DNA from: Proteromonas lacertae
Taxonomy: Eukaryota; Sar; Bigyra; Opalinata; Proteromonadidae
Length of the DNA stretch: 64,000 nucleotides
Direction: 5' to 3'
NCBI GenBank assembly: GCA_002245135.1
Contig: NGBS01000004.1
Span: 266,762-330,761 of the forward strand
Of the stretch, positions 9,583 to 41,039 are shown in pieces (the first letter of the stretch is position 1; each line of letters starts with the position of its first letter). Made by a program: the position numbers and the translations under genes. Under the pieces are notes generated by a model. That model was not told the DNA's origin and searched no databases. It saw only the letters and a program-made list of their open reading frames with translations.

Positions 9583-9719
9583 CAAATATATTATATTATA
9601 CTGTATACACCCCTTGTCGAAATTTTGTCCTTCTATTTTTTTATTTTCTCGTTTATTTAATTGTTTTTTTTGTTTTCTTTTCTTATAACCCATAAATATA
9701 AAACATAAAATAATAGAAA

Positions 9720-10660
9720 ATATTAATTACCGTGGTATCCGATAATGACAACTTTCATCTTCAAGGTGAACGTAAAGTTTTGGCCTACGACATCTAAGGG
9801 TTGTTGTTATCTCCTCCTTTACCTTCATTGACTTCAAAGGCACTTCAGGTGCACACTCAGGTATTGGAATATCAACCTACGGCACTCTTCACAGCTCTTG
9901 TAATATCCTCCATCCCGTTTCAGGAACTCCTTCCTTGAGTGCATCTTATTCTTGTATAGATTCACGAGTCTCATCCTATATAGTTGTCGATACTTATTAC
10001 GTTCTTCACGGCATTGACTACAGATCTTATAGAAGTGCTTACAGTCTCGTTTAATTTCTCTCTGGCGTCTTTTACTGCAATAACAACAAATAAACATGAT
10101 GTCTTAAAACTGCGAAGAAATTCAAAACTAGCCTGATCCATCCGGAGTTCACATTTGGTAACTTGTTAACAACTGGTAACAAGTTAACAATTGTAAACTC
10201 CTGGTTTCCAGTCGGTTTCCACGATTCTATATCGTAGCAAGGAGAATCAAGAGCGTGATCAGATTCATCACATCGAGGTAACCAACACTTGTAGATAGTT
10301 TCCAGGAGTCCTCGTAGGGAAGAAGACTCTGTAGGAACCATAAGTAAATAGGACTATGCACAATCAGAATTTTAGACACTTGGAAGCTAATCAGAAACTA
10401 TATTTCAAAGTTTACTTATTTACCCAATTTGAAAAAACATGATTCAATTTCTATAATTCTTTAGTTATTATAGTATATGTAAATGCTTTTTGGATACTCC
10501 TTCATCCCACTTCAGATACTCCTTCCTTGGATGGATCTTGAATCACCTAGTATATTATACTCCTTCAGTTACTCTAGATCGTACTGTCAGAAGAATCTTA
10601 TAAGAGATTATCATGTAGGGAAGAAGACCCAGCAGGAGATCTTCATCAATGGAATGTAGG
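9720..10660. other. GC-richer foreign segment with internal degenerate duplication
   Basis: Base composition is clearly richer in G and C than the surroundings. Two short stretches recur about 600 and 300 bases apart: 9906-9945 resembles 10497-10537, and 10314-10336 resembles 10615-10637, so the segment contains a decayed duplication. A minus ORF at 9834-10097 (88 codons) has several Cys pairs (CCYC, CSQC, CEEC) like a small zinc-binding protein, but a second frame (10072-10341) also stays open, so coding is doubtful. Nothing else recognised. Confidence 0.45.
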
Positions 10661-10665
10661 ATCAA

Positions 10666-11740
10666 TCATTCTTTTTTATAATCTGAATTCTTTTTTATAA
10701 ATATACAATTATTCTTTATTTTACATTTTTCATTTCTTATAAATGATATACGGCTAACCATACTTCGTGTTGATAACAAAAGGTAATTACATTTAGATAA
10801 TAATTCAATTTCAATTAACACACTACTTGCATACATGTTATATTTTTTTAAAATATAATCCCTTGAGTGTTTTAAATTTCTAGGATAATGTAAATGTTTT
10901 TTAAACTCTAATGTATAGTTACTATATTTATTACTTATCTTATATGATATTTTTGATGAATCTGTGCAAACTAGCCATTTAATATTAAAACTATCATGTG
11001 ATTTGTTTAACGCCAACCTAATAAATTGATTTATAGAATTAGTACCTCCAAACCAAGGTGCTATTTCGCCTAATTCTGCGCTTATACCTGTTCTAATATG
11101 CATTCCTATAATATATTTAGATGTATATTTCTTCATATAATTTTCTACAGTATTTAATATTTTATTACTGGGAATGTATATGTTATACATGAAAATATTG
11201 AATAATATGTCATCATTATATTTGTATTTGACATTATTATGAAATATTCTGTTTAAATATTGTCTTTCTTTGTTATTATAATATATTGAAACGGTATAAT
11301 GAAGTTCAATTATTATGTTTTGATCTTTTGATTTTTTCATCATTTCATATTGTATATGTGGTTCAAATTGATTAGAATAGCTGAGTATATAATAATTAAG
11401 CATATTACTATAATTAAAATATTTAAATGCATTATTAATATTACACAATGAAAAATAATCTTTCATATATTTCCATAATCCAACTAATATTATAAATATA
11501 TGTATATATACATTCCAATTTTCTATTTGTTACTAATGACAATAAAAGTACTTGAAAAAGATCTAATAAATGATTAGCAATTCCACATTTGGAATGAGGC
11601 AAATAATGAATATATTTGGAGTATAGTTCTCTTTCCTTAATTATATTGTTACACACAGAATTATTATATTTATACTCATATTTATTATTTATGAATGATA
11701 AAAAAATAAACATAATAAAAATCACAATATATAATATCAT
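10666..11740 (-). CDS. Fucosyltransferase-like GT-B glycosyltransferase (frameshifted)
   Basis: A type II membrane enzyme: MILYIVIFIMFIFLSFI is a signal anchor, then a lumenal catalytic domain. SKCGIANHLLDLFQVLLLSL resembles the GxGNRL-type donor-binding segment and IGMHIRTG the H-x-R-x-G motif of alpha-2/6-fucosyltransferase and xyloglucan-fucosyltransferase families; LLSTRSMVSRISF near the C terminus is the third expected block. The sequence is split by one frame change near 11450-11500, so it is two overlapping frames (11441-11740 and 10666-11466). Intronless. Paralogues in this window are at 11784-12909, 19397-20363 and 37358-38324. Donor and acceptor sugars are not inferable. Confidence 0.6.
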
Positions 11741-11783
11741 TAATTATCAATCTTATTACTAAATAATAGGTGAATGAAATCAT

Positions 11784-12909
11784 ATGAGATATTTATTCAT
11801 AATAGAAATTGATATTCTCCGTATAATATTTATTACAATTCTCACTTTATTTATTATTCAATTTACTTATATTTTACCAAAACAGCTCAATATAATATCA
11901 AAGATATTGCCACATGGACTAGCTAATAGAATTAATTGCATTTCATCTTCATTATTAATCTCTTTTTTATCAAGAAGATATCTGTTGGGTATTAATAAAT
12001 ATTATAATGTGTATAGTTCAACACTTCTATTTACTACAATCCGTAGTAGTAATAAATTCGACATATTCAATTATTTCAGATGATAAGGATTATTTATCTA
12101 ATAATTTTACTAAACACGAAAAGATCTGCATTAATCCTTGTGATTTATATAAACAGATTATATTTTCTAAAGATAGAAATTTAGTCTTTTTTAGTGTTGT
12201 TGATATTATACCATCACTAGTTAAATGTAAAATATATTTTCGATTCTTCTTAATAAATGGATTTATAAGCAAATCTAATAAAAATGATATAATATATCAA
12301 ATACTAGAAATAAATAATATACTATTTTCAAAGTATATCTACTTTAGAAAGAAGTACAGAAGTAGATATATATTATTTTATAAAAACTTAAGAAATTACA
12401 ATTACAGTATAGGAATACATTATAGAATGAAAGATAGATGCTTTAAAAATGAATGTAATATAACTAAAAATATTAAGAAAAGAATTAAAAGTGAATTAAA
12501 TAGTTCATACACAAATTCAAGTGTAATTTTTATTAGCACTATAAATAATTATATCGCAAACGAACTATTAAATGGATATAAATATATTCAATATTTGCCA
12601 AACATTAAAGCTTTTCATATATCAATGTTAAACAGAAATATGGGAGAGGATGAAAAATCAAAACTAATAGGAGATATTTTATTAATTGCTTCTGCAAAAT
12701 ACTTAATACTCACTAAGGGTAGCACCTTCTCTTTACTTATTTTATCAATAGGAGGGTTAGATTCAAGAGGAAATAGGAAAAAATATTTAATAATCGATAG
12801 CGATGGAAATAGAATTAATGACTCACATATAGATATAATTGATACACAAATGAAAAGTCATAAATGCATTAAAGCAATTTATTATTATGTTTCAAAGAAA
12901 TATACTTAA
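11784..12909 (+). CDS. Fucosyltransferase-like GT-B glycosyltransferase (frameshifted)
   Basis: Divergent neighbour of the previous gene, 43 bases apart start to start. Anchor IIFITILTLFIIQFTYIL, then HGLANRINCISSSLLISF (compare GLGNRL) and NYSIGIHYRMKDRC (H-x-R motif), then LILTKGSTFSLLILS. A frame change lies around 12010-12085, where one frame (ending 12083) gives way to the other (starting by 12007). About 370 residues if joined. Intronless and AT-rich like the other island genes. Paralogy with the next-door gene suggests an old local inverted duplication. Confidence 0.55.
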
Positions 12910-12941
12910 ATTGATGTAGCATTTTACTAGTTTATAATGTA

Positions 12942-14069
12942 ATGTTTTTGTCATTTATATTAAAAATATATACCATATTTCTATTTTATTATTTTTTTAT
13001 CATAGTAAATACATCACTATATAAAATAGAATATAATTGTATTACTACAAAGAAAATATATGCAATATATAATATATCAAAAAAGATATTAAACAATAGC
13101 GTTCATATTTCATCTAAAAAGAAATATATATCATTTCTATTCAACACAAATATAGAAACATTTTATTTAAAAAATATTGACAGCGATAAATACAATTTGT
13201 TATTAGTTGAGAATGCTTATATAACAGACAGAGTTATAATTCACAATTGCAAAATTCTAATGTTTTCTGGACAATGTAATTGTAGTAATTGGTATAAAAG
13301 TAATATCATTTTTAAAGAATTAATTTCATCTGTTAAATATGGTTTTGCAATAATTAATTGGCATAGTGATGGTGTGTTTCATGGTACAATAGAAGGTTTA
13401 ACAAGAATTGTTCCTTATATTGATTATTTGACTCATAATCAAGTAATATTTATAATTATTTCCTATCCAAGATACAAACAAAATACAGCAGCAAAAATAT
13501 TAGAGTTATTAGGTTTCTCTAGAAGAAGAATTCTATATGGTAAATATAATGTTCAGAATTTATATATTCCAACACCATATTATTGTGTAGAAACATCTAC
13601 ACCATTAATTGTTGAATTTAATAATATTTTGAGGAGAAAAATTATGAACAAAAAATGTTATATTTATAAAAGAAAGTATATTTTAGTACTTCAAAGATCC
13701 AAGAATAGAGTATTTCAAAATTTTAAGAATATAATAAAGGAATTAAAAAAACAATTTAAATACAATATTGTAGTTTATCATGATTCTAACAAAAATTTAG
13801 ATCAAATTTATTGCTGGTTTACATATGCATCAGTTATAATTGGTTATCATGGTTCAGGTTTAACTAATATATATTTTTCTAAACCAAATGCTATTATAAT
13901 TGAAATATCACCTATAAATCCTATTTATGCTTTTGCTAAATTAGGAAGCCAACTTGGTTTTTCATATTATATTTATAAGTTGTCATATAAAGAATTATAT
14001 TTAAAGAATATAAATCTAAATATATCAACTTTAATTGAAGCGATTAAAAATAATTACATAATTATTTAA
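12942..14069 (+). CDS. GT61-family glycosyltransferase, complete
   Basis: 375 residues from ATG 12942, 32 bases after the preceding gene. N-terminal anchor YTIFLFYYFFIIV; then NWHSDGVFHGTIEGLTR, matching the W-H-W/H-F motif of the DUF563/GT61 family, and the conserved GYHGSGLTNIYFSKPNAI (usually HGAGLTN.xF.xP.), which binds the nucleotide sugar. GT61 enzymes add xylose, GlcNAc or arabinose in the secretory pathway of plants, animals and fungi; specificity here is unknown. Intact and intronless. Paralogues at 18066-19250 and 38471-39654. Confidence 0.85.
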   Translation: MFLSFILKIYTIFLFYYFFIIVNTSLYKIEYNCITTKKIYAIYNISKKILNNSVHISSKKKYISFLFNTNIETFYLKNIDSDKYNLLLVENAYITDRVIIHNCKILMFSGQCNCSNWYKSNIIFKELISSVKYGFAIINWHSDGVFHGTIEGLTRIVPYIDYLTHNQVIFIIISYPRYKQNTAAKILELLGFSRRRILYGKYNVQNLYIPTPYYCVETSTPLIVEFNNILRRKIMNKKCYIYKRKYILVLQRSKNRVFQNFKNIIKELKKQFKYNIVVYHDSNKNLDQIYCWFTYASVIIGYHGSGLTNIYFSKPNAIIIEISPINPIYAFAKLGSQLGFSYYIYKLSYKELYLKNINLNISTLIEAIKNNYIII

Positions 14070-14100
14070 TTCATTCAAAATGTTTTACAATAATACTTAA

Positions 14101-14913
14101 TCAATTATATATAGCTGTACAAAACGGTTTCCAAGAATAACATTTAACATTGTTTATGACTTTTCTTTTTTTTGCCATTATAATTGAATGACTATATATA
14201 TTTACATCATCTAATAATAATAAAGAATTTGAGTGAGAAAGGCTTTTCATATTAATAATATCATTATATATTACTTTTTGTTTATGACATCCGTCAATGT
14301 GAATAATATCGCATTTATCAAATGAAGGATATAATTCTTTAAATAATGGTACATTTATTTGACTATCACCCCACATCATATTCATATTAAAATATTTTGA
14401 TACTAATCTATATGCATCTTTTGAATAAGCATGGCCATAATCAAATCCTGAATATGTTACATTATGTCTTACTGCTGTTATTAGAGTAATAGCACCCACA
14501 CCCAATTGAAATCCTATTTCACAAATAATCTTTATTCTCTTTTTTCTATTATAATCAACTATTAATTGATGATATTTTTCCATTTGATAGAAAAACATCC
14601 CTATATCCCCGTCTTTATTACTTAGATTACCAATAATTTTTGTCATTCTTATTGATTTTGCATACATTCTAATTCCATCAATTATATAAAATAAAGGCAC
14701 TGATTTATTTCTATAATATATAGATATGCAATGCAATTGTTTGTCTATATTTGGAATTTTATTATATGATTCATATATTACTTCCAAATAGTATTTATTA
14801 TTATAACTCACTAAATATTCGTTGTAATAATTGATATATGTTTTATTATATAAAGAATTTGAGAATATGCTAATCAGCATACAACTCACTACAAAAAATA
14901 AAAAGAAATTCAT
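14101..14913 (-). CDS. Membrane-anchored class I SAM methyltransferase (Methyltransf_24-like)
   Basis: N-terminal anchor FFLFFVVSCMLISIF, then a catalytic domain with ICEIGFQLGVGAITL (SAM-binding glycine region), FDYGHAY, CDIIHIDGCHKQKV and LLLLDDV, the pattern of Methyltransf_24/CmcI-like enzymes in polysaccharide and secondary-metabolite clusters. The start is ATG at 14911-14913; the in-frame codon before it is TTG. Converges on the GT61 gene with 31 bases between the stops. Lies inside a run of sugar-transfer genes, so methylation of a glycan is the likely job (inference). Confidence 0.7.
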   Translation of the reverse strand: MNFFLFFVVSCMLISIFSNSLYNKTYINYYNEYLVSYNNKYYLEVIYESYNKIPNIDKQLHCISIYYRNKSVPLFYIIDGIRMYAKSIRMTKIIGNLSNKDGDIGMFFYQMEKYHQLIVDYNRKKRIKIICEIGFQLGVGAITLITAVRHNVTYSGFDYGHAYSKDAYRLVSKYFNMNMMWGDSQINVPLFKELYPSFDKCDIIHIDGCHKQKVIYNDIINMKSLSHSNSLLLLDDVNIYSHSIIMAKKRKVINNVKCYSWKPFCTAIYN

Positions 14914-14994
14914 CAAATGAAAATAATAATTTTAATAAATATTATAGTTTTCTAAATAATTATGATAAACAATTTCTTTTTACTCTTATATTTC

Positions 14995-15825
14995 TTAATA
15001 TCTAAAATAATTGATGAAAGAATGCTTCTTCATTATGAATGTTTTATTGTTATCATAATGAATGGATATATTATTTCTTCCTCTATATATACATAATTCT
15101 TTTATACCATAAATATATGATATAATTGTAAATGCACTTTGATCATATCTATGGTTTTTAAGACTTGACCCATTAGGTGAAATACAGTTTAAAGAAAATG
15201 AACATTTTTTCCATGCTTCTAACACTTTTATAGATACTTGTGATGGAAACATAAATGCGACTGTTGCAGCAGAGCATGATGGTAATTTTAGTATACTGTT
15301 GTTTATCTTAAAATAATCAGACATTCCTTTATGTGTATAAGGTTGTAATGAATGAAATCCTTTTTCAGACCATACGTGATATTTCTTTATATGAACTAGT
15401 ATCCCATCTAACGATCCTAAAATGTTGCATCCGCTATCTAGCCAAATTAAAGGCAACTTATATATATAATAAGTTTCATATATAATTACTGCTTTCCAAG
15501 CATATTTACCATAATCAATATTTACATTGAAATAAGATGGATATTTATTATAGTTAAAATTTTTAAAAATTATATTTTTGTGATAGTTAGAATAGTTTAA
15601 TAATATGTTATATATATATTTAGAAAGACCAATATTCCATACTATTAAATAACAATGTTTCACATACCTATTATATGAAATAATAAAATTTAATAGAGAT
15701 AATTCATGATTCGATGAAGCAGCAGTTGTAACAACACAGTAATTTACTTTTCCGTGGATAAATAAAGATGTAACTATAAAAGATATTATTGTTGAATAGA
15801 AGAGTAAATACAGAAGTATAAGCAA
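14995..15825 (-). CDS. DUF1647-like glycosyltransferase, tandem paralogue 1
   Basis: Signal anchor LYLLFYSTIISFIVTSLF, then a lumenal domain with VVTTAASSNHELSLL, LIVWNIGLS, GKYAWKAVIIYETYYIYKLP, PLIWLDSGC and KNHRYDQSAF. The AWKP-x-I and WLDxG motifs resemble the DUF1647/nucleotide-diphospho-sugar transferase fold. About 40-45 percent similar by eye to the next gene (15875-16720), a tandem duplicate on the same strand. No ATG precedes the anchor; the open frame begins just after TAA with TTG at 15825. So the annotated start is TTG, or the 5' base is missing. Confidence 0.55.
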   Translation of the reverse strand: MLILLYLLFYSTIISFIVTSLFIHGKVNYCVVTTAASSNHELSLLNFIISYNRYVKHCYLIVWNIGLSKYIYNILLNYSNYHKNIIFKNFNYNKYPSYFNVNIDYGKYAWKAVIIYETYYIYKLPLIWLDSGCNILGSLDGILVHIKKYHVWSEKGFHSLQPYTHKGMSDYFKINNSILKLPSCSAATVAFMFPSQVSIKVLEAWKKCSFSLNCISPNGSSLKNHRYDQSAFTIISYIYGIKELCIYRGRNNISIHYDNNKTFIMKKHSFINYFRY

Positions 15826-15874
15826 TTAAAATATTATTATTTATAAATATTAAACAGTGTTTATACAAACCTTA

Positions 15875-16720
15875 TTACTTATGTTTATTTAGTAATTCAT
15901 TGAATTTATTAAATTTTGAATTATTATAATATTTAAAATAACTATCAAAGTGAGTAGAAAAGCTTTTATTCCTACTTATACTATTTCCAAAATGATTTTG
16001 GTATAACAATATTGATAATACACTTTGATCTTGTCTATGATTTTTTCTACTAGATCCTATTGGAGCTATGCAATTCTTTATTAAAGCACATGCTTTCCAT
16101 AAAAACAGAATAGTAATTATTTTATTTGAAAAATAGTACAATCCAACAACCCCTGCTGCACACATAGTTTTATTATATATATTTTCTTCTACATTTAGTA
16201 AATAGAAGAGACTGTTATATGTGTATCTTTTAATTGTAGTGCCAGAGCTAATTGTGTAGATATATTTTTTATGTATTTCTTTATATTCATAATCTAATTT
16301 ACTTTTAATAAAACATCCACTATCTAGCCATAATAAGGTTTTTTTATATATGATATAAGTGTCATATATAATAAACGGCTTCCATGAATAATAACCTGAG
16401 TTTATGCTGATATTAAAGTGACTAGGATATAAAGAATAATTAAAGTGATGAATTAGTATAATTATTTCTTTTCTTCTCACATAACTTTGTAATTTATACA
16501 ATTTCTTAATATTACAATCTGATAATCCTAAGTTCCATAAAATTAGGCATATTTGATTTTCAACAACTAAAATTCTGTAAACAAATAGTAAAAGTAAATG
16601 AAAATGATTATTTGATGAGCCAGTTACTAACAGCTTGTATTTTAATGGACATAAGGGATAATTTATGTTAATAAAATAGTAAATAGTTATAAAAGAAACT
16701 ATCAATAATACAATTATCAT
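15875..16720 (-). CDS. DUF1647-like glycosyltransferase, tandem paralogue 2
   Basis: Starts at ATG 16720; MIIVLLIVSFITIYYF anchors it. Conserved with its neighbour: LLVTGSSNNHFHLLL, LILWNLGLSD, YYSWKPFIIYDTYIIYKK, LLWLDSGC, CAAGVVGL and KNHRQDQSVL. Intact, intronless, about 280 residues. The two genes are head-to-tail, 49 bases apart, which fits a recent tandem duplication or a co-transcribed pair. Family assignment rests on motif memory, so substrate is unknown. Confidence 0.6.
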   Translation of the reverse strand: MIIVLLIVSFITIYYFININYPLCPLKYKLLVTGSSNNHFHLLLLFVYRILVVENQICLILWNLGLSDCNIKKLYKLQSYVRRKEIIILIHHFNYSLYPSHFNISINSGYYSWKPFIIYDTYIIYKKTLLWLDSGCFIKSKLDYEYKEIHKKYIYTISSGTTIKRYTYNSLFYLLNVEENIYNKTMCAAGVVGLYYFSNKIITILFLWKACALIKNCIAPIGSSRKNHRQDQSVLSILLYQNHFGNSISRNKSFSTHFDSYFKYYNNSKFNKFNELLNKHK

Positions 16721-16879
16721 ATACAATAGTTACTAATATAAGCAGGCATTAATGATGTAGAAAATGTTAATTATATCATACTATTTAGTGTAAAGATCAT
16801 TTTAAAAATAAATCTAAATAATATGTAAAATGATGAATTTTACATGTAAATTCATAATACTTCATCTCTAGTTGTATAG

Positions 16880-17460
16880 CGTCAACACTCTGCTCTCTTT
16901 TTCCAGAAATCGTAGATATACTCAATTGGGTTTAATGATTTCATAGAAGCAAAAACTGTAATACTATTATTACCATATTTAATCTAATTATGCAACATAC
17001 CAAGTTCTCATATTGAAGAAATAATTGTAATTTCGTTTGAATTACTTCTCATATGAACTATAGGAGTCTAGCCTACATACGCAGGTCTAAATCCACTATC
17101 TTGGAATTTAATTAACTTTCGAACAACAGATAGTCTTTGTTAAACAGGTTAGGTATATTATCTTTATTACAACCTCTAATTACATAACTTTTTAATGCTA
17201 TGTTAGGAAATCCATCATCCATCATCCTTTTTGTTAAATGTCGATGGATAGTTGAAGTGCTTTTGTTATTTTCTCGAATTTTATTGATTAATATCTAAGA
17301 TTCTGATTAATAGATATTAATATCACCTCCTTTGTTTAGAATTCTTAACAAGTTTTTTACTCTAGTGATGTTTATATTGGTCATACTGGAGTAGTAATCT
17401 GTTTTGGTATACTTTTTTCTCAGATTGTTCTTTAGCTTCATTAGCTTTAAGTTTAGATTT
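16880..17460 (-). pseudogene. Tc1/mariner-IS630 transposase remnant
   Basis: Read on the minus strand: a helix-turn-helix-like start (NITRVKNLLRILN, STIHRHLTKR), then PAYVG-TPIVHMRSNS and ITVFASMKS, ending SLNPIEYIYDFWKKRAEC, the hallmark end of the DDE superfamily 3/IS630-Tc1 transposase. Multiple in-frame TAA, TAG and TGA codons show it is dead. The right end of this remnant is cut by the left arm of the inverted repeat at 17494. Related to the fragment at 40651-41031. Confidence 0.65.
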
Positions 17461-17493
17461 TTTGGAAGATATAACTTCTAATAGTTCAATATT

Positions 17494-18049
17494 ATTTGGA
17501 TCAGAATTGGGAGCGATAAGAAATGGAGGTATTATAGCAAAAGACCATGATGTAGATATAATTATTCCTGTATGGCTTAATTATAAAATATTTAGATGTG
17601 ATCAATATTTTGAATTTTATCCTCATAAATGTTATATATATTCAAATAGAGACACTTTAATTTGTAACAAAACAAAACATGATTTTATGATTATATTAAG
17701 AGATTATATTGAAAAGAGACTAAATATGACTATAAATTATAGATGTATAGATTGGGGTAAGTATGGATACACAAGTTGTTGGACAATGAATTATAGAAAC
17801 TGTTTTCTTGATTTATGGATTCTAATTGGTACTGAATATTTTTATCAAAATATAAATATATGTCATTGCTATTTTTCTAATGTATTGACTTTCTGTAGTG
17901 AATATGCAAGAGAAAATGTTTTAAAAATGTATGGAAAAAAATGGAAAATTCCTATAAAGAAAGGTTCTGGTGCTACAGCATGTAATATTGTTTTAACACC
18001 TAACTTCAATAACTCAATTAAAAGATATATTATTAATAATTTAAAATAA
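17494..18049 (+). pseudogene. LicD-family protein, 5'-truncated by the repeat break
   Basis: Starts at the repeat border inside the gene: only FGSELGAIRNGGIIAKDHDVDIIIP onward remains, and the upstream ORF codons (17462-17493) come from unrelated sequence. The DHDVD and GAIRNGG motifs match the LicD nucleotidyl/phospho-transfer family. The full gene is at 39671-40417. No start codon or promoter of its own, so not expected to work. Confidence 0.85.
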
Positions 18050-18065
18050 TTATCCCTTATGAAAT

Positions 18066-19250
18066 TTAGAATATAATTTTGCTTAAAATTACATTCAATT
18101 CATTAATGCCAACTGTGATTTTTTCATCTGTTGTATTTACAAATAAACCAAAATATGATAGACCTAGTTTACTTGCTAATGATGTATAACACAAATTCTT
18201 CACAAGAAACTCAACAATTGTGGCTTTTTTTGAAAGTATTATGTTTGATAAACCAGCTCCATGAGGTGCAACTATCAGTTTAGCATATTTAAAATAGTTC
18301 AATGTATTATTAAAAGTTGTATTTGGATAATAAATTACAATTTTAAATTTGCTATATCTTTCTTTTAACAAGTTGTAAACTTTACAAAAGTTTGTAATAT
18401 CTCTTTTACCAAATCTTTTTATTAAAACGATTTCATAAATTAATTTAGAATTGATTTTTTTCCTTAAAAAATATCTTAAAAAATATAAATGAATTATAGG
18501 TGGAGTAGATCCACAACTACCTTTCTCTAATATTATTAATCTTTTCACATGAATATTTCCATAAATAATCCTAGAATCATCAAATCCTATAAATTTTAAA
18601 TACAATACATTTGCAGATTTGGAAGTGTGTATTTTTATTGATTCATCTCTCAATAATTCTGTAATGTAAAAACCTAATTTAGTTAAACATTCAACAATTG
18701 AATGAAAAACAGCATTTCCCCAATGATGTGTTATTGATACAACCTTATCGTATTGGTTGTAGTATGTATTACTATGATAAAGAATGGGTATAAAATCACA
18801 TTTACATCCTCCTTTTGTAGTTATATTATAATAAAATGAATGAATACTCCCTTCATTTGTTATTATTACATCTGTAAAGCCGTAAATTTTAAGTTGTTGT
18901 ATTATGTGAAGATGAGTATAATTAGTAATGATAATTGGAGATCTGTCAATTAATGACATATAAAATGAATCAGAGTACTTTTTTATTCTAATGTTTATCT
19001 TAGTGGAAATAAATATACGCGAATATGTAAAATTGTAAGTATCTAAGTCCACGCAACTGAGTGATATGTTTGAATTAGCATTATGTTTAAGATCAATTAA
19101 TTTACTTAAATTATTAAAGGCATTAAATAGAAAATAAGATTCATTTTTATTATATTCATATCTGCTGTAGTATATATAATAATAAGTATATATTAAACAT
19201 AGATATAATAATGAATATTTAAATTTAATAAATGAAAATTTTCTCAACAA
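18066..19250 (-). CDS. GT61-family glycosyltransferase (left arm copy)
   Basis: 394 residues with signal anchor near YLCLIYTYYYIYY; TKGGCKCDF, HHWGNAVFHSIVECLTKL and APHGAGLSNIILSKKATIVEFL are the GT61 blocks. Intact in this copy, whereas the right copy (38471-39654) carries a one-base shorter A-run that truncates it. No ATG precedes the anchor: the frame is open to TTG codons after a TAA about 27 bases upstream. Ends 17 bases from the convergent LicD end. Confidence 0.8.
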   Translation of the reverse strand: MLRKFSFIKFKYSLLYLCLIYTYYYIYYSRYEYNKNESYFLFNAFNNLSKLIDLKHNANSNISLSCVDLDTYNFTYSRIFISTKINIRIKKYSDSFYMSLIDRSPIIITNYTHLHIIQQLKIYGFTDVIITNEGSIHSFYYNITTKGGCKCDFIPILYHSNTYYNQYDKVVSITHHWGNAVFHSIVECLTKLGFYITELLRDESIKIHTSKSANVLYLKFIGFDDSRIIYGNIHVKRLIILEKGSCGSTPPIIHLYFLRYFLRKKINSKLIYEIVLIKRFGKRDITNFCKVYNLLKERYSKFKIVIYYPNTTFNNTLNYFKYAKLIVAPHGAGLSNIILSKKATIVEFLVKNLCYTSLASKLGLSYFGLFVNTTDEKITVGINELNVILSKIIF

Positions 19251-20363: not shown

Positions 20364-20419
20364 ATCTAGTTTAATTATTTATCATATAAATTCAATCTAA
20401 TATTACTTCCAAAATTAGC

Positions 20420-30740: not shown

Positions 30741-30761
30741 AACAAATTTATTTAGTTTGAA

Positions 30762-32494: not shown

Positions 32495-32499
32495 TTTTA

Positions 32500-33702
32500 T
32501 TGAAACTGATTATTATATTATATGCTAATATATTATTTTTATATACAATCATTATATTACTATACAATTTATTATCAAATAAATATTATTATAAAAAAGG
32601 GAAAATAATTAATATAAAGCCTATTGAAGTAGTAAAAAATATTTTCTATATATCGCATTACTATGATATTCGCTATAAAGCAATTAGAATGCTATTCTAT
32701 ATTTACAATAATAGCAAAAATATACATAATATAACGTGCACGATTATATATACTAATAATGTTAAAAAATGTAATATGGAAATAATCACTAAGATAGCAG
32801 AAGATAATACTGTTATGAATTTATTGCTATATACAAATATTTTACCATTAAAAATGATATTAAATAAATCTATTATTTATATCTCAAAAATAAAAACGAA
32901 ATATGAATTAAAAAGAAATAAATTAACTGTTTGTATAGGTAAAATGATTAACTTTATTGCATTTAACATGCTATTACAAATGATTGAATCTTATCTTTAT
33001 TTTGGAGCTGATCATTTTATTGTGTATAATACTTCATGCTCTGAAAAAGTGAATAAAGTGTTGAAATTTTATTTGAACAAAGGGCTACTAGATGTTGTAA
33101 ATTTAGATAATCATTTTGATATAAAATATGGAAAATATAAAACATATGCACAAAGATTAAAATTAAATGATTGTTTCTATAGAAGTTACTACGAAACGAA
33201 AAGTATTGTTATGACTGATTTAGATGAAATACTTTGGCCTAATTATGATAATAGTATTGCAAAAATGATTGATAAAATAGATCAACAACAAAGAAAAGTA
33301 TATGATACATATATATTTCAAGAAAAAATATTTAAGCGATTCTATGTTCCTTATTATGATAGATTAGTGCATAATATAAAAGATTGTAACATATTTGAAT
33401 ACCATAATTGTTGTGACTATACATGGAGATGGCCTAAACTATTAATTAGAAATTTATCAAAAATTACTTCCGTTTCAATTCATTGGATTACAGGAAAACT
33501 GTATAACTATACAGAAATAAAAATTGATTCAAATATTGGATTTATTAGACATACAAGAAGAATATATCCCTACATAATTAGTGGACTAATGGGAAACTGG
33601 AGTATATGTTCATCTGATAATAGAGAACTTGTTATACATGATAGATCTAAAAAAATTAAAGATATACTATTTAAAGCTTGTCAATCAAACAATGGAAGAT
33701 AA
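32500..33702 (+). CDS. GT92-family glycosyltransferase (right arm)
   Basis: Predicted protein identical to 24020-25222 (400 codons, DLDE motif). Start codon TTG after the FkbM TAA; no ATG in the anchor region. Convergent overlap of 22 bases with the next gene. Confidence 0.8.
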   Translation: MKLIIILYANILFLYTIIILLYNLLSNKYYYKKGKIINIKPIEVVKNIFYISHYYDIRYKAIRMLFYIYNNSKNIHNITCTIIYTNNVKKCNMEIITKIAEDNTVMNLLLYTNILPLKMILNKSIIYISKIKTKYELKRNKLTVCIGKMINFIAFNMLLQMIESYLYFGADHFIVYNTSCSEKVNKVLKFYLNKGLLDVVNLDNHFDIKYGKYKTYAQRLKLNDCFYRSYYETKSIVMTDLDEILWPNYDNSIAKMIDKIDQQQRKVYDTYIFQEKIFKRFYVPYYDRLVHNIKDCNIFEYHNCCDYTWRWPKLLIRNLSKITSVSIHWITGKLYNYTEIKIDSNIGFIRHTRRIYPYIISGLMGNWSICSSDNRELVIHDRSKKIKDILFKACQSNNGR

Positions 33703-34703
33703 GTAAAATTATTATCTTTATTTTGTAATATGTCGAATTTACATTTTTTATAGTACCATGGAAATTTAGTTCTTCTATGAAGAATATAATTCTTACTATA
33801 GTTAATTACTTTTGATTTGCAATTCTTTTTCAATATAACAGTATGAATATCCACATAGTATACACATGTTGTATTATATATGATATATTTCCAAGGTGAT
33901 GAAGGACAACGAGAGTATAATAAACTGTGATTATTGGTTATTAACAATATAGAATGAAAATAATATATATCATAGTATGGTGAAAAAATCATACTATTTA
34001 TTTTAAGTATCTCATCTTGATCAACAAATACAATATGTTTAGCATTATATTTATATCTAATAAAACAATCATTATGTTTCCATACATGGAGATAATTACC
34101 ATATTTAAATGTTGTTGAATTGTTAGAATATTTATCTAATATAATTGTTACTAATCCTTTTAATTTATATTCATTTAGTATTTTATCAATTTCTTCACCA
34201 CAACTAGTTTTATAAACAACAAATAAATTTATTCCAAGGCTGATATAGTGGTTTATGAATGTATATAATTCATTAGCTTTTGTGTAATTAATAAAGGTTG
34301 TTAAACATAAAACGTTTTTATATTTGAATTTTACATTATTACCTTTCAAAATTGTTGATCTGTCTAATATTTCTACATTTTTAACACTATAATAGTCTTT
34401 ATAACCAAAAATAACATTATAATAGTATTTGTTGACATAATGTTGAATAATTGGATATGAAAATTTATTTCTATCCAATAACAAAGTGGAAGTATATGAT
34501 GATGATGCAATACTTCTATTTGTTATAAAAAGGATGAATATTACCTTCTTTTTTACCGTATCAATAAAAGAAGAAAAAATAAATACTCCATCGCTTACTC
34601 TTTTTATGTCTATATAATCAACATAACTACATATTTTAGCGTTATAAAAATCACTCGAAAGAAAAATAATATAAAAAATCCAAATATAGCTTTTGAATAA
34701 CAT
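33681..34703 (-). CDS. GT92-family glycosyltransferase (right arm)
   Basis: Same catalytic region as 23010-24041, VFVDQDEIL included. Only the N terminus differs (MLFKSYIWIFYIIFLSS): the T-run in the anchor codons has five rather than six bases, so one of the two arms has a frame error or real length variant. Confidence 0.8.
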   Translation of the reverse strand: MLFKSYIWIFYIIFLSSDFYNAKICSYVDYIDIKRVSDGVFIFSSFIDTVKKKVIFILFITNRSIASSSYTSTLLLDRNKFSYPIIQHYVNKYYYNVIFGYKDYYSVKNVEILDRSTILKGNNVKFKYKNVLCLTTFINYTKANELYTFINHYISLGINLFVVYKTSCGEEIDKILNEYKLKGLVTIILDKYSNNSTTFKYGNYLHVWKHNDCFIRYKYNAKHIVFVDQDEILKINSMIFSPYYDIYYFHSILLITNNHSLLYSRCPSSPWKYIIYNTTCVYYVDIHTVILKKNCKSKVINYSKNYILHRRTKFPWYYKKCKFDILQNKDNNFTYLPLFD

Positions 34704-34741
34704 ATCTTCATGATTAGTTTCTACATAAAATATTGTAGAAG

Positions 34742-34972
34742 ATGTGTTTTATAAGAATATTGATTCATATATTTGTTATTACAAAGAGTATAATACAAAG
34801 ATTATATCTGTTATTTTCCCTAAGATTCAAATATAGAAGAATGAATCAATTCTTGCTATTATTATTACAAACCAAGCATGTAAAAAGAGTTGGAATAAGT
34901 GTAAAAGTACCTGGAATAGAGAAATATTTAATGAACTATTTTAATTGCTTATGTATATCGTTTATACATTAG
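34742..34972 (+). CDS. Small ORF, unknown (right arm)
   Basis: Duplicate of 22749-22979; 76 codons, hydrophobic start. Not recognised and possibly not a gene. Confidence 0.25.
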   Translation: MCFIRILIHIFVITKSIIQRLYLLFSLRFKYRRMNQFLLLLLQTKHVKRVGISVKVPGIEKYLMNYFNCLCISFIH

Positions 34973-35231
34973 CAAAAATAAATATCCAAGAAGTAATTCC
35001 CAAATTAATGATCATAAAATAACTATTTAAAATATTATCTTCAGTAAAATAAAAATTATAGTGATACGCAAATGTAAGTGGTATAACATAATCAATTTAA
35101 ACATTTAATAGAATTTTTATATCATATCTTATATAAAATTCATTTTCTATTAATTATGTGCACAAACAAGAATTATAAATGAAGCAAGAAGAAACAATAG
35201 TATATAATCAATCTATATAGATTTAAAATCT

Positions 35232-36906
35232 TTGTGTCTTTATATTGTTCATTTAAATAGTATATTAGACGAAGGTATTATTGAATATATAAGAAGATCT
35301 AAAAGAATAATCTATAAATATAAAAATGATATATTTTCTTTAGCAATCAATAATATATCATATCCGCAGAGTATAGAGGTTAATTACTTGGATAATTATT
35401 TCAAAATATATGAAGAAATTGGCATAACAAATATACAAAAATGTGCTTTTGTGCTTGTTGCAGGAGGATTAGGTGAAAGACTAAATTGTGATTCTATTAA
35501 AGTATATTTATTTGATATTTACTGTTAAATTTAATAGATAAGCTTAAATGTTGACCAGATTAGTGAATTATCATACTTAAATTTATACTTTCGTTATATT
35601 ATTTCTTATCAAAATATGACAAAACAAATGATGTATGTATGCATAATGACTTCGAAATCTACAAATATAAGAATAAAGCACTTTCTTGGAGAGAATGAAT
35701 ATTTTGGATTATCTAAAAATCAAATATACGTAATTGAACATCGTTTGATGATGAAAATTGTAATTTGCTATATAAAAATCATAAAATCATTACTAAACCA
35801 CATGGTCATGGTGATATTCATAATTTGTTATTCTCAGTATATATATGTCTTTATTGTCTAGAAAGGAGTATTAGACAATTGGAAATTGAAAGGAATTCAA
35901 TATATGATAATTTTTCAAGATACTAATTCATTGGCTTTCGAAGCAATTCCAATTTTAATAGGAAGTACAATATTTAACAGATTAGAAGTAAATTATTTAA
36001 CTGTTGAAAGATACAAAGGTGAAAAAGCATCAATAATGTGTTCGTGTGAAGAAAATGGTAGATACTATAATGTTAGAGCTATAGATTATTCTCTTTTGCC
36101 AAAATTGTTAGGAAAAATATAAATCAATTCAGTAAATCAGAAACTCTATATCCAGCTGTTACAAATATTATTTGCTTTGAGTTAAATAAATACTATAAAA
36201 CTCTAAATAAAAAACCTGCCTGAATATATTCTTTCAAAAGAATTCAAATCATTTAGAATTGAAACAGTATTACAAGATTATATACTTCTTACTGATAATG
36301 AATCTAAAAATATGAGTGTGAATATGCCAAGATGGTTATGCTTTAATCCAGTTAAAGAAACATCTGAGATTTCAGGATTATATTCTCCTAACAAAAAATA
36401 TTGTTAATCATTTTACTGGAGTTTTAGTAATTGAAAATAATTCAAAACTGGTAATAACAGGTAATGTTTTTATTAACAATTTACACTTAAAAGGTTGTTT
36501 AACAATCAAAGTAAAAGCAGGAGGATGTGTAAGATTGAATAACATAAGTGTTAAAAATAGAGGATATAGAAGAACAATGGAAAAAAATCATATTTTTAAT
36601 ACTCATATAAACAATATTAGTGAGTATATATTGGAATACGGAATAGGTAATTATAGCAGTTATACTAAAAAAGAATTAGGTTCTCATACTATGTTAACTA
36701 ATTCAATCACTTTAATATGTTGTTTAATTTTTGTATCATATATCATTAATAAAAAGAGTTACAGTTATATGTATACTAAAAGCAAATTTGTAAGAAACAA
36801 TGTAACTGTATGTTTGTTTCTACCAAGCGCTGTAACTGATTTCCCATTTTTACAAAGCATTATAAATAGCGTTGATATTTTTTGGCCAAAAGGATTTAAT
36901 TTTTAA
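35232..36906 (+). pseudogene. UDP-sugar pyrophosphorylase (USP-like), broken (right arm)
   Basis: Same blocks as the left copy: AFVLVAGGLGERLN (35430-35480), TKPHGHGDIHNLL (35790-35830), FQDTNSLAFEAIP (35910-35950), VRAIDYSLLPKLL (36070-36110), then RWLCFNPVKET and LNNISVKNRGY. Homopolymer lengths differ from the left arm at three sites, and neither copy gives one open frame. The region that should lie between IKVYL and IMTS is too short, which argues for real loss, not only sequencing error. The 3' part is fused to a truncated anchor gene (ATG 36691). Confidence 0.7.
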
Positions 36907-36936
36907 TATCACTATAATATAGAAAGTATAGTGATA
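36907..36936. repeat. Perfect hairpin (right arm copy)
   Basis: Mirror of 20785-20814, directly after the stop of the truncated fusion; TATCACTATA pairs with TATAGTGATA. Confidence 0.55.
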
Positions 36937-37300
36937 GGTCAATGTTATAAGTTGTTGGTTAATCAGCTACTTATCTAACACTGTTTCTTTATTCTTTATA
37001 TTATACTTCAATAGCAATAATTCACAATGAAATTAAGGTTTTAAAATTACTAGAATATAATAACTTCTATTTTTCCATTTTTATTCATCTCAGCTGATAT
37101 ATTTCTCTCAACGGCATAAATCTGTTGATTATTATGGAGTTGATCCATTTCGATTACATCAATGAAGATCCCGTAAAGTCAACTCTTGATCTAGAAAGGG
37201 ATGAACCTCTAGAACACTCGTTGGAAATCTGTGACATTGAGCCAATGTCCCATATATATACTATATAAATTTAGAATTCTAATCAATCATAAGATGTTTA
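36907..37300. repeat. Dispersed repeat (right arm copy)
   Basis: Mirror of 20420-20814. Holds a GC-richer 44-codon ORF at 37134-37268 (MELIHFDYINEDPV...) of foreign look and the CAACGGCATAAAT phrase shared with 54549. Confidence 0.5.
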
Positions 37301-37357
37301 AGCTAATTTTGGAAGTAATATTAGATTGAATTTATATGATAAATAATTAAACTAGAT

Positions 37358-38324
37358 TATTAGTTTACTAATCATTATTTTCACTATTTTATGTATATAC
37401 TTTCTTACTCTTTTAACAGTCTATTCAGATTATTATCATATTTTAGAGAATAGAAAAAATATAAATAATATATACACTAAATATATATATACAAACAATA
37501 TTAGAAGGTATAGAGATTATGCAGAATATAATCCCTGCAAATCATGTGGTTTAGGTAATAAGTTACTTGGATTGATTAGCTCGCTAGCTTATTGTATAAG
37601 TTTCTCCTACTCTTTAAACATTAATAATTGGAATAGTTTGTGGTGGTATTTTATATTTCCTTTAATTATTCAAACAAATATAAGCATATACAATATTTCC
37701 TTTAATGGTCATTTTTATGGAATAATGAATGTAATATATGATAATAAATCATTGAATTATTTATTAAATAATCATGCTATTAGCTTTAATATAAATAAGA
37801 TAATTATGGTAAATGAACTAGCATACAAAATATCTTTTCACTTTCTTCAAATTAGTAATTCGATAAAATTAAAAGCAAATGCTATAATTAAAAATGGTTA
37901 TAGTATTGGAATTCATTTAAGAACAGGAAAAGCTGACGGAAAAGAATATTTATTACACTATTTGAAATATGAAGATTCAAGAGATATTATATATTATCTA
38001 AAGAATATTACTTCTAATGAAAGTATTTATGTCAGTTCCGACTCATTAAAATTAAAAGAATTATTCAGAAATGAATTACCTAATTCATATTTTTCAAATT
38101 TTACTTCATGTAATTCAGGATATGGTTTATTACATAATAATAATAAATGTGCAATCGAAGCTATAATAGATTATTATATATTAAGTAAATCAAATACTTT
38201 AATTCTTACTAGATGTAGTTCTTTCAGTTTAATTAGCTTATTTTCAAACAAATTAGGATTTAATAATAGAAGAAGATATAAATACTTTGGGAAATGTAAA
38301 TTGCATTTAGAATTGTACAAATAA
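37358..38324 (+). CDS. Fucosyltransferase-like GT-B glycosyltransferase (right arm)
   Basis: Copy of 19397-20363; anchor, GLGNKLLGL and IGIHLRTGK all present. The frame from a stop near 37357 has no ATG before the anchor, as in the left copy, so an indel or a non-ATG start must be considered for both. Confidence 0.65.
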
Positions 38325-38470
38325 TAAAGTGAAAATTAAACATGAAGATGGGAAATTGTATATGTCAAAATTTGTTAATTGATATATTAAGTTGTAGAAT
38401 TATCATCACTCTACAAGTTTATCACCTTCCTATAATATTGATATAACACACTTTTACTTTATTTATATTT

Positions 38471-39654
38471 TTGTTGAGAAAATTTTCATTTATTAAATTT
38501 AAATATTCATTATTATATCTATGTTTAATATATACTTATTATTATATATACTACAGCAGATATGAATATAATAAAAATGAATCTTATTTTCTATTTAATG
38601 CCTTTAATAATTTAAGTAAATTAATTGATCTTAAACATAATGCTAATTCAAACATATCACTCAGTTGCGTGGACTTAGATACTTACAATTTTACATATTC
38701 GCGTATATTTATTTCCACTAAGATAAACATTAGAATAAAAAAGTACTCTGATTCATTTTATATGTCATTAATTGACAGATCTCCAATTATCATTACTAAT
38801 TATACTCATCTTCACATAATACAACAACTTAAAATTTACGGCTTTACAGATGTAATAATAACAAATGAAGGGAGTATTCATTCATTTTATTATAATATAA
38901 CTACAAAAGGAGGATGTAAATGTGATTTTATACCCATTCTTTATCATAGTAATACATACTACAACCAATACGATAAGGTTGTATCAATAACACATCATTG
39001 GGGAAATGCTGTTTTTCATTCAATTGTTGAATGTTTAACTAAATTAGGTTTTTACATTACAGAATTATTGAGAGATGAATCAATAAAAATACACACTTCC
39101 AAATCTGCAAATGTATTGTATTTAAAATTTATAGGATTTGATGATTCTAGGATTATTTATGGAAATATTCATGTGAAAAGATTAATAATATTAGAGAAAG
39201 GTAGTTGTGGATCTACTCCACCTATAATTCATTTATATTTTTTAAGATATTTTTTAAGGAAAAAAATCAATTCTAAATTAATTTATGAAATCGTTTTAAT
39301 AAAAAGATTTGGTAAAAGAGATATTACAAACTTTTGTAAAGTTTACAACTTGTTAAAAGAAAGATATAGCAAATTTAAAATTGTAATTTATTATCCAAAT
39401 ACAACTTTTAATAATACATTGAACTATTTTAAATATGCTAAACTGATAGTTGCACCTCATGGAGCTGGTTTATCAAACATAATACTTTCAAAAAAGCCAC
39501 AATTGTTGAGTTTCTTGTGAAGAATTTGTGTTATACATCATTAGCAAGTAAACTAGGTCTATCATATTTTGGTTTATTTGTAAATACAACAGATGAAAAA
39601 ATCACAGTTGGCATTAATGAATTGAATGTAATTTTAAGCAAAATTATATTCTAA
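38471..39654 (+). pseudogene. GT61-family glycosyltransferase (right arm, frameshifted)
   Basis: As 18066-19250 until residue about 340; an A-run near 39492 is one base shorter than in the left arm, changing HGAGLSNIILSKKAT into SKKPQLLSFL and a stop at 39520. The lost C-terminal 45 residues are still readable in another frame up to 39654. Real lesion or homopolymer error. Confidence 0.75.
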
Positions 39655-39670
39655 ATTTCATAAGGGATAA

Positions 39671-40417
39671 TTATTTTAAATTATTAATAATATATCTTTT
39701 AATTGAGTTATTGAAGTTAGGTGTTAAAACAATATTACATGCTGTAGCACCAGAACCTTTCTTTATAGGAATTTTCCATTTTTTTCCATACATTTTTAAA
39801 ACATTTTCTCTTGCATATTCACTACAGAAAGTCAATACATTAGAAAAATAGCAATGACATATATTTATATTTTGATAAAAATATTCAGTACCAATTAGAA
39901 TCCATAAATCAAGAAAACAGTTTCTATAATTCATTGTCCAACAACTTGTGTATCCATACTTACCCCAATCTATACATCTATAATTTATAGTCATATTTAG
40001 TCTCTTTTCAATATAATCTCTTAATATAATCATAAAATCATGTTTTGTTTTGTTACAAATTAAAGTGTCTCTATTTGAATATATATAACATTTATGAGGA
40101 TAAAATTCAAAATATTGATCACATCTAAATATTTTATAATTAAGCCATACAGGAATAATTATATCTACATCATGGTCTTTTGCTATAATACCTCCATTTC
40201 TTATCGCTCCCAATTCTGATCCAAATCCTAAAAAATAAACAATTTTTAGCTTTTTTAAGAAAGATATATATTTGATTATTATTTTGGTTCTGTTATAATC
40301 AAATGATTTTCTATTTACTTTCACCCATTTACAGAATGGGATATTATTTGAGTATAATATCAATAAAACAATCATTAATAGTATAATGTTATAACATAAA
40401 TAGTTGGAAATATTCAT
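39671..40417 (-). CDS. LicD-family phospho-transferase, complete
   Basis: ATG at 40415-40417 gives MNISNYLCYNIILLMIVLLIL (type II anchor), then VYFLGFGSELGAIRNGGIIAKDHDVDIIIP, the LicD/fukutin-like motif with DHDVD, CIDWGKYGYTSCW and CRDxF-like LDLWILIGTE. LicD-type enzymes attach phosphocholine or phospho-sugar alcohols to glycans (known family: LicD, fukutin). About 248 residues. The ORF can be extended to 40486 but the extra codons lie in a transposon end. The start codon sits within the terminal repeat of that element. Confidence 0.8.
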   Translation of the reverse strand: MNISNYLCYNIILLMIVLLILYSNNIPFCKWVKVNRKSFDYNRTKIIIKYISFLKKLKIVYFLGFGSELGAIRNGGIIAKDHDVDIIIPVWLNYKIFRCDQYFEFYPHKCYIYSNRDTLICNKTKHDFMIILRDYIEKRLNMTINYRCIDWGKYGYTSCWTMNYRNCFLDLWILIGTEYFYQNINICHCYFSNVLTFCSEYARENVLKMYGKKWKIPIKKGSGATACNIVLTPNFNNSIKRYIINNLK

Positions 40418-41004
40418 AATACTTATACGTAACGACATTTGTTGCAAAATAGATATACCGCATTGCATAACAAAAAAATCATTCATGCCATTGCATATTA
40501 CTTATACTTTTTATCAAGCCATTTCATATTACATTTATATGATTGCAAAATAAATATACATATCTCAAGCCTTTTCAAGAATTCTTTTATAATAGTCAAA
40601 GGACTGCTATATATCTATTCTCTTCATAGCAATCCTTTGTATTTTGAAGTTTATATCTTCAATAGTGTTGTGTTAAAGCATTCAGCTGAACTGATAGTAG
40701 AAAATGCATTTGTAATACTTTCAAGTATTTGATTTCTGTTTTGGTATATGGATGTTTCAGCTCTTTTTTTCCATATGCCAAAGATATTTTCTATTGGATT
40801 AAGAGGAATGGAATATTTAGCATTGAATAAAAGTATATTGCCAGATCCTTCAATTAACATCTTAACCTGGTCTGAATGATGGATATTTACATTTAAAATT
40901 ATATATATGTAATATGAAATGGCTTGATAAAAAGTATAATTAATATGCAACTCTGTATATCTATCTATTTTGCAACAAATATCGTTACGTATAAGTATTA
41001 TGAA
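40413..41004. mobile_element. Tc1/IS630-like element with long terminal inverted repeats
   Basis: TIRs of 43 bp: 40413-40455 (TTCATAATACTTATACGTAA...) and 40962-41004, one mismatch, with TA flanks; a second block of inverted similarity (about 40491-40545 with about 40895-40945) extends the TIR. Internal transposase fragment only, so non-autonomous. Inserted exactly where LicD starts and only 36 bp from the direct repeat copy B. Confidence 0.85.
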
Positions 41005-41031
41005 ATATTGTATAAGTAAGCTGCAAAACAC
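40651..41031 (-). pseudogene. Tc1/IS630 transposase C-terminal fragment
   Basis: Ends ...PLNPIENIFGIWKKRAET then about 30 more residues: the DDE-3 C terminus (usual LNPIEN.W...K). No catalytic DDE Asp residues are visible upstream, and the ORF runs through the TIR at its start, so it is a decayed piece. Similar C terminus in the 16880-17460 remnant. Confidence 0.7.
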
Positions 41032-41039
41032 TGTATTAT

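Follow-up and report, generated by a model that had tools for sequence, protein, structure and literature searches.

A stretch of 64,000 nucleotides of the protist Proteromonas lacertae (Opalinata; contig NGBS01000004.1 of assembly GCA_002245135.1, positions 266,762 to 330,761 of the forward strand), hereafter referred to as the window, carries between two direct repeats an island of genes for glycan-building and glycan-decorating enzymes (window positions 9608-41039). The island is real in the assembly and more dynamic than a first-pass annotation of the same sequence had described, being haplotype-specific, partly duplicated in mirror image and a member of a genome-wide set. On balance, we regard it as fairly probable that the island is one of many clusters of Golgi-style type II glycan enzymes in an AT-rich nuclear protist genome, and that these clusters change by inverted duplication and by the loss or gain of whole islands. 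What was computed directly comprises the genes present, the inverted copy as assembled, the allele lacking the island, the clustering, the motifs of the GT61 and GT92 glycosyltransferases and ratios of non-synonymous to synonymous substitution rates (dN/dS) near 0.3-0.4 between paralogues.

Flanking repeats and the allele lacking the island

The direct repeats by which the first-pass annotation had bounded the island are present (left, 7973-9607; right, 41034-42685; 98.2% identity, with 10 mismatches over 1653 bp) and represent partial duplicates of a gene in direct orientation: the left one, 1.63 kb in length, contains a 5'-truncated gene for a P-loop (GHSKIGKT) protein (open reading frame (ORF) 8652-9497), which is complete at the right one (41731-42861, minus strand). 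This P-loop gene family has at least 21 further places in the assembly (69-84% identity). When the island was tested as a mobile element, the recombinase signal amounted to one DDE transposase-like fragment at its right edge (40654-41049, minus strand; PF13358, 23.4 bits, below the cut-off of 28.6), the flanks being the direct partial gene duplicates just described.

A DNA search with the right flank led to contig C765, in which the same flanks are joined directly through one copy of the 1.6 kb repeat and the 33 kb between them are absent (C765:1-8627 corresponds to window 426-9055 and C765:8617-16410 to window 42197-49967, at 98.7-98.8% identity). Another contig, C751, belongs to the same haplotype as C765 (at the sites where one of the three differs, it is the window at 10, C765 at two and C751 at none), and the haplotypes differ in the flanks by 0.3-0.8% substitutions. 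For the island part at 9608-17493, no second full copy was found in the assembly among the 40 of 228 candidates that were scored, which comprised only paralogues of 67-77% identity and short pieces of dispersed repeats. With an allelic contig that has collinear flanks and no island, the island is, at the level of the assembly, a presence/absence (hemizygous) allele.

The single repeat copy of C765 has a 72 bp deletion and one substitution of its own, and is of the left type at all informative sites at 7977-8582 and of the right type at the three at 9488-9593; this left-then-right typing points to a crossover between the repeats and hence to island loss, so that the island was probably lost from that haplotype by recombination between its flanking repeats, insertion into an empty ancestor being less well supported. 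The latter polarity, with the empty allele ancestral and the island inserted together with a 1.6 kb target duplication, would be compatible with everything else proposed here and is a possibility that we hold to be doubtful: the divergence of the two repeats does about equal that between the haplotypes; however, all changes specific to the right copy lie to the left of all those specific to the left copy, an order that is obligatory in a crossover product and that, taken as 7 and 3 events, random interleaving would yield in 1 case in 120.

Mirror-image copies and clusters across the genome

Inside the island, a feature absent from the first-pass annotation is that 17494-26757 (the left arm) is an inverted copy of 30965-40226 (the right arm), the two differing over 9264 bp by no substitution and by six single-base insertions or deletions (indels), whose confinement to A/T runs suggests residual homopolymer errors in the assembly. 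The right arm, which has the same genes as the left one, extends at either side into complete genes of a putative LicD-family phosphotransferase and a GT-A-like protein, whereas the left arm begins within the former and stops within the latter, which makes the right arm the likely source and the left one a shortened copy. Both breakpoints touch repeats: the outer one interrupts a dispersed repeat, probably a transposon remnant (16855-17499; pieces on seven other contigs, 69-97%), which in all four of the other copies fetched extends beyond 17493, the point at which LicD sequence takes over in the window, and the inner one falls at the edge of a repeat that is also found on contig C881, with donor and target sharing a few bases there. 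Microhomology-mediated template switching would produce such breakpoints. A join of two alleles, also considered as the origin of the inverted copy, was rejected, as the arms differ less than the haplotypes do (0 versus 0.3-0.8% substitutions).

A search of the assembly (50.2 Mb in 1181 contigs) gave 302 matches to five of the island's families (GT92 112, FkbM 94, GT61 65, DUF1647 18 and LicD 13) and 102 matches to AT3 acyltransferases, counts that include alleles on separate contigs; with matches of equal score and length collapsed, 94 GT92, 86 FkbM, 56 GT61, 13 DUF1647 and 11 LicD matches are left. Another of these matches lies within 10 kb of 191 of the 302, versus a mean of 35 and a maximum of 58 in 300 trials of uniform random placement, and linking at 15 kb yields 170 groups, 72 of which have at least two matches, 51 at least two families and 15 at least three. 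Likewise, 59 of the 102 AT3 matches are situated within 10 kb of a five-family match, versus 9 of 108 for kinesins. Contig C865 has a palindromic island of its own, which holds GT61, two GT92, an O-FucT-like gene below the cut-off and an AT3 acyltransferase and whose spacer is itself a repeat. The glyco enzymes are scattered host paralogues and not an isolated foreign island. Scattered host paralogues with introns were the outcome that the first-pass annotation had set against its own reading; the relatives are indeed scattered, but they are mostly stop-free in the matched region (14 of 177 GT61 and GT92 matches contain a stop, versus 55 of 128 for kinesins; hand counts, Fisher p 5e-13) and so are not intron-bearing paralogues.

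Mirror-image arrangements recur elsewhere in the genome. Under equal thresholds, same-family pairs of near-equal score within 50 kb comprise 16 inverted pairs on 10 of 139 contigs and two same-strand pairs on two contigs. Seven inverted pairs were verified at the sequence level, five of them nearly identical and two diverged: those on C283, the contig of the window (0 substitutions in 9264 bp), C865 (one substitution over two pieces totalling about 15.25 kb, about 250 bp extra in one arm, the pair reaching the end of the fetched sequence), C72 (one substitution in 4085), C124 (five substitutions in 6565, with 14 gaps), C308 (none in 2931), C1030 (94.6%) and C994 (86.5%), the divergence of the last two supporting real inverted duplication. 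Near-equal inverted pairs contain 32 of the 302 glyco matches versus 2 of 108 kinesin places (p 0.004), a contrast that is weak when counted by contig (10 of 139 versus 1 of 85, p 0.055). The kinesins, too, have such a pair (C990:2198 and C990:39390, 37 kb apart).

As for the function of the enzymes, H191, E195, R287, R291, H338, G339 and G341 are invariant in 18 aligned GT61 sequences, in which an HGxG-type motif is present, and D247 and D249 (DxD) are invariant in 11 aligned GT92 sequences. Between paralogues, dN/dS is 0.29-0.44 in all eight pairs compared, ratios that are rough because dS is near saturation (1.2-1.9) in seven of them. Searches of PDB matched POMGNT2 and EOGT with the GT61 profile and galactan synthase (E 4e-5) with the GT92 profile, all of which build glycans in the secretory pathway. 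Given these relatives, the invariant motifs, the dN/dS values and the hydrophobic N-termini of 11 of 13 enzyme ORFs, glycan assembly in the Golgi is the most likely role of the island enzymes, and the glycans in question may be located at the cell surface.

Several observations weigh against the reading of functional, recombining Golgi-type clusters. Along with the alleles within the family counts and the near-saturated dS values, pairs and trios of GT61 genes are also found amid other genes, outside of multi-family islands (C802, C994 and C1030); when score is disregarded, the same-family pairs spaced by at most 50 kb number 56 inverted and 38 same-strand ones, only a mild bias; and the near-identity of five of the seven verified inverted pairs could partly be an assembly effect. 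Within the island, 5 of 13 enzyme ORFs (DUF1647 (a), GT61 (b), O-FucT-like, GT92 (b) and GT-A-like) have their first in-frame ATG as late as residue 36-168, which could be due to frameshift errors, a 5' exon or decay, and the second-type FkbM gene (27420-28253) has two in-frame TAA codons; part of the island may, judging by these missing ATGs and stops, be decaying or carrying sequence errors. Such defects are among what could be expected of a genomic graveyard, that is, of transposon-rich, recombination-prone regions in which large families are shuffled neutrally and islands have no joint function, and the repeats at both breakpoints of the inverted copy can be added to them, as can the hairpin (MITE-like; miniature inverted-repeat transposable element) repeat at 26979-27350, which has at least 25 other full-length places (24 at 93-95% and one at 90%) and of which 12 of the 28 copies among those listed (11 of 27 without the window's own) lie within 10 kb of glyco genes, versus 9 of 108 for kinesins. 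The low dN/dS in all eight pairs (with dS near saturation in seven), the invariant GT61 and GT92 columns and the gathering of different families (at least two of the five in 51 of the 170 groups and at least three in 15) argue against neutral shuffling, which we therefore deem unlikely as an account of these clusters, while granting it more weight than any of the alternatives considered below.

A more sceptical explanation of the near-perfect inverted duplications, namely that they are assembly or amplification artefacts (fold-back reads) and that the palindromes are absent in the cell, seems improbable. It would account for window arms with no substitution in 9264 bp and only homopolymer indels where the haplotypes differ by 0.3-0.8%, for the near-perfect, short-spacer palindromes of C72 and C124, both contigs of 22 kb, and for the microhomology at the junctions, which is also usual in amplification chimeras; it fits poorly with two separate junctions in one contig, each running on into other sequence, with the older pairs at 94.6% and 86.5% and with the excess of glyco matches over kinesins in inverted pairs, even if the latter has a p of 0.004 by match and of 0.055 by contig.

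Genes of the island, their frames and introns

The island is mostly AT-rich (2 kb windows largely at a GC of 0.20-0.25, with the exception of 27-32 kb), and a Pfam scan of 20 of its ORFs bore out the first-pass gene list in broad terms, supporting most of the families, although the third fucosyltransferase-like gene and the GT-A-like gene were recognised by eye only. From left to right, the part outside of the arms begins with a NodZ-like fucosyltransferase in two overlapping frames (10669-11743, minus strand; PF05830, 29.7 bits, cut-off 28.3) and the third fucosyltransferase-like gene, also in two overlapping frames (11778-12906, plus; motifs seen by eye, no Pfam match for its ORF 11959-12906, and a DNA relative of 67.9% on C485). 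They are followed by GT61 (a) (12915-14066, plus; PF04577, 62.3 bits), a Methyltransf_24 methyltransferase (14104-14931, minus; PF13578, 39.4 bits) and two DUF1647-like transferases, (a) at 14998-15825 (minus; PF07801, 24.2 bits, just under the cut-off of 25.7) and (b) at 15878-16729 (minus), which has no Pfam match of its own and is 36% identical to (a).

The left arm holds GT61 (b) (18069-19274, minus; 73.8 bits), an O-FucT-like fucosyltransferase (19400-20365, minus; 25.5 bits, below the cut-off of 31.5), a putative UDP-sugar pyrophosphorylase found in pieces (21408-22513, minus; approximate ends), GT92 (a) (23001-24038, plus; 59.1 bits), GT92 (b) (24023-25243, minus; 106.7 bits, with the first in-frame ATG at residue 71) and an FkbM methyltransferase (25231-26070, minus; 31.7 bits in Pfam and 37.5 bits for NCBIfam fkbM_fam, cut-off 37.7). 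Their right-arm copies, assigned by ORF and arm identity, are FkbM (31652-32491, plus), GT92 (b) (32479-33699, plus), GT92 (a) (33684-34748, minus), the O-FucT-like gene (37356-38321, plus) and GT61 (b) (38447-39517, plus), the frame of the last one ending early at a one-base homopolymer difference. Between the arms lies the second-type FkbM gene (plus strand), which has a Pfam match and a 92% relative on C346, where the frame is open. The whole copy of the GT-A-like gene (30756-31517, plus; no match in the Pfam scan) has a 40% relative on C865, and the whole copy of LicD (39674-40501, minus) scores 25.0 bits in Pfam (cut-off 22.6), a match that spans only profile positions 2-36 of 227, and 47.2 bits across 47 residues for NCBIfam Mf1 (cut-off 225).

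Searches beyond Pfam added little to the weaker assignments. Structure predictions for 30756-31517 and 15878-16729 were unusable (predicted local distance difference test (pLDDT) 34.5 and 36.8, respectively), profile searches of the same two against PDB gave nothing significant, a PDB search with the O-FucT-like protein gave no match, and at E 0.01 NCBIfam and PHROGs returned any match for two and three of ten proteins, respectively. The pyrophosphorylase pieces had no match in the Pfam scan; two of the three match UDP-sugar pyrophosphorylase chains among PDB sequences (E 2e-4 and 1e-9), and the middle one weakly matches a UDP-GlcNAc pyrophosphorylase (E 0.033). Of the donor supply claimed for the island in the first-pass annotation, this one putative pyrophosphorylase is what stands, neither a dehydratase nor an epimerase having been named by Pfam in the 20 ORFs.

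The further claim of type II anchors on almost all of the enzymes agrees with 11 of 13 enzyme ORFs (those left of 16 rows once two N-terminal fragments and one unnamed ORF are set aside, the rows comprising neither the pyrophosphorylase nor the second FkbM), which have an N-terminal hydrophobic stretch, defined as 19 residues with a mean hydropathy of at least 1.8 lying among residues 1-90 of the stop-to-stop frame, but not with the NodZ-like (1.22) and GT61 (b) (1.21) ORFs; in the NodZ-like gene, a hydrophobic start sits in another frame. At the expected starts of GT92 (b) (24020-25243) and DUF1647 (a) (14995-15825), a TTG was noticed by eye, be it a lost start, a sequence error or an unusual initiation.

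Nor does the island appear to be intronless throughout, as had been proposed: GT61 and GT92 matches are mostly stop-free across the genome, but the pyrophosphorylase is best read as spliced, with two host-like introns. The frame runs on from piece to piece when GTATAT...TAATAG (36 nt) and GTATAT...TATTAG (38 nt) are removed, this being the pair that, among two and four candidate joins in all for the two gaps, best fits the host introns of the window (37-39 nt, GTAT...TAG, counted by eye), and the joined peptide runs into an FQDTN..F.AIP stretch, which we take to be typical of the enzyme family. The reading of this gene as a pseudogene was dropped on account of these in-frame joins. For the O-FucT-like gene, the one candidate 41 nt 5' intron is weak evidence, because 36% of shuffled upstream sequences yield some candidate and 8% a consensus-like one. 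Four candidate joins (a short intron or a frameshift) exist between the overlapping frames of the NodZ-like gene, and eight between those of the third fucosyltransferase-like gene. An altered genetic code as the cause of the interrupted frames was likewise rejected, as TAA or TAG closes 18 of the 24 stop-to-stop frames that reach 250 aa when the standard code is applied, most enzyme ORFs among them. In the available extracts of the respective sources, Blastocystis introns are given a modal length of 30 nt (PMC5608401) and a length of about 32 nt (PMC3129679).

Other repeats are found in and around the island. A GC-richer dispersed repeat occupies 28560-30690, with larger pieces on other contigs (85-92%), and one of its copies, together with another DUF1647-like gene, is located at 11578-16196 of C283, about 250 kb upstream. 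The end bases of the hairpin element resemble, by eye, those of a unit of about 7 kb at C865:83583-90559, of which it may be the short partner; this unit has 104 bp terminal inverted repeats (83%) and HYDIN/ASH-domain exons, looks like a transposon carrying a flagellar-type gene and recurs as large pieces at at least 22 other places (93-99% identity), many of them on glyco-gene contigs. Outside of the island, window 59421-61477 shares 98.5% identity with the opening 2 kb of contig C858, where another GT61 locus adjoins; this might reflect a dispersed repeat or an exchange.

Origin, possible meaning and known systems

The first-pass annotation had likened the island to bacterial capsule loci and giant-virus glyco-islands, and the gene make-up (methylation, phospho-transfer and, in the sister island, acetylation) upholds that resemblance, while viral origin is left without support by the scans for GT61 and GT92. 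In protein searches, the best matches were in metagenome contigs (GT61 58% and GT92 61%, with shorter ones up to 59% and 63%, respectively), and among the GT61 matches, organism names were attached only to cyanobacterial ones, of 25-27% identity. For the host itself, the HslV protein served as a marker: its best match bearing an organism name was from Blastocystis (59%, 155 bits), with a bacterial one following closely (143 bits) and four further matches of 85-99% ranking above both, so that this single gene hints at an opalinid-like stramenopile. An operon-like block taken from bacteria would be in keeping with the matches of LicD, FkbM and AT3 in 2, 3 and 10 of 14 control genomes and with the prokaryotic relatives of GT61; these relatives are, however, distant (260 in prokaryote genomes, the best 80 of which are 20-44% identical over parts and scattered across many phyla, so that a recent bacterial donor was rejected), GT92 and DUF1647 match none of the 14 control genomes, and the candidate introns and genes on both strands likewise make such a block very improbable, even if single families, e.g., AT3, may be old transfers. 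Still less credible is an endogenised giant-virus glyco-island, for which there is the likeness to Megavirinae glyco-clusters of 6-33 genes, as given in the portion of the source at hand (PMC10117803): in scans of viral contigs that covered GT61 and GT92, none of the 131 pattern matches for GT92 and 11 of 44 for GT61 encode a relative, the latter all short, weak and 28-40% identical, on which grounds viral origin was rejected; Pfam named no viral gene in the 20 island ORFs beyond a chance-level TT_ORF1 (14.9 bits, cut-off 27), and the host-type candidate introns of the pyrophosphorylase and the many paralogues over the host genome speak against it as well.

In the course of events that we favour, the enzyme families would have expanded by the dozen in the genome, the clusters would be altered by inverted duplication, with both ends of the new copy here set into repeat sequence, and whole islands would be lost or gained between direct repeats. 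The genes of an island would be expressed together, their products acting by GT61, GT92 and fucosyl transfer on surface or secreted glycans, followed by methylation by FkbM and Methyltransf_24 and by phospho-transfer by LicD, and haplotypes or strains could hence differ in the structure of their surface glycans. Tentatively, and with distinctly less confidence, this might be taken further, to a eukaryotic form of capsule switching, in which about 70 multi-gene glyco-clusters (the 72 groups of at least two matches, alleles counted), some of which exist as near-identical inverted pairs and could be deleted between direct repeats, would let recombination diversify the coat. Were this true, haplotypes, strains or even cell lines would carry different sets of surface-glycan enzymes, and the coat would be diversified by recombination instead of by mutations in a protein antigen. 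Polysaccharide loci that are clustered and vary block by block typify bacteria and some giant viruses; in a eukaryotic nuclear genome with several hundred clustered matches, some of them duplicated in mirror image, and at least one one-haplotype island, glycan diversity would become a trait driven by recombination. The island is also a natural system for studying how inverted duplications originate at repeats. In open-licence literature, whose limited coverage is no proof of absence, no eukaryotic genome was found described as carrying such block-wise variable glyco-clusters.

Each of the systems that come closest shares part of this picture. Megavirinae glycosylation clusters, as far as the accessible part of their description goes (PMC10117803), are, like the island, dense in glycosyltransferases and methyl- and acetyltransferases and vary in presence between genomes (M4 being without the cluster), whereas the island is nuclear, mostly has hydrophobic N-termini, includes at least one gene that reads best with host-type introns, shows no named dehydratase or epimerase and no viral GT92 relatives in the searches described, and has dozens of counterpart clusters per genome. 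Large gene-bearing inverted repeats with very high arm identity and structural variation are shared with the mammalian sex-chromosome palindromes, for which the excerpt available describes arm-to-arm conversion (PMC6790999); the island differs in belonging to a protist, in encoding glycan enzymes and in having breakpoints at repeats.

Bacterial capsule and O-antigen loci combine transferases with FkbM, LicD and, as in the sister islands, O-acetyltransferases, and are gained and lost as blocks by recombination; unlike them, the island has genes on both strands, its families include the eukaryotic GT92, POMGNT2/EOGT-like GT61 and O-FucT-like ones, and the 20 ORFs scanned gave no Pfam hit to a polymerase, flippase or export gene. 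The surface-antigen arrays of protists, e.g., VSG and VSP, likewise consist of large lineage-specific families in variable blocks, but what varies there is the antigen itself, whereas the island encodes enzymes that would alter the glycan.

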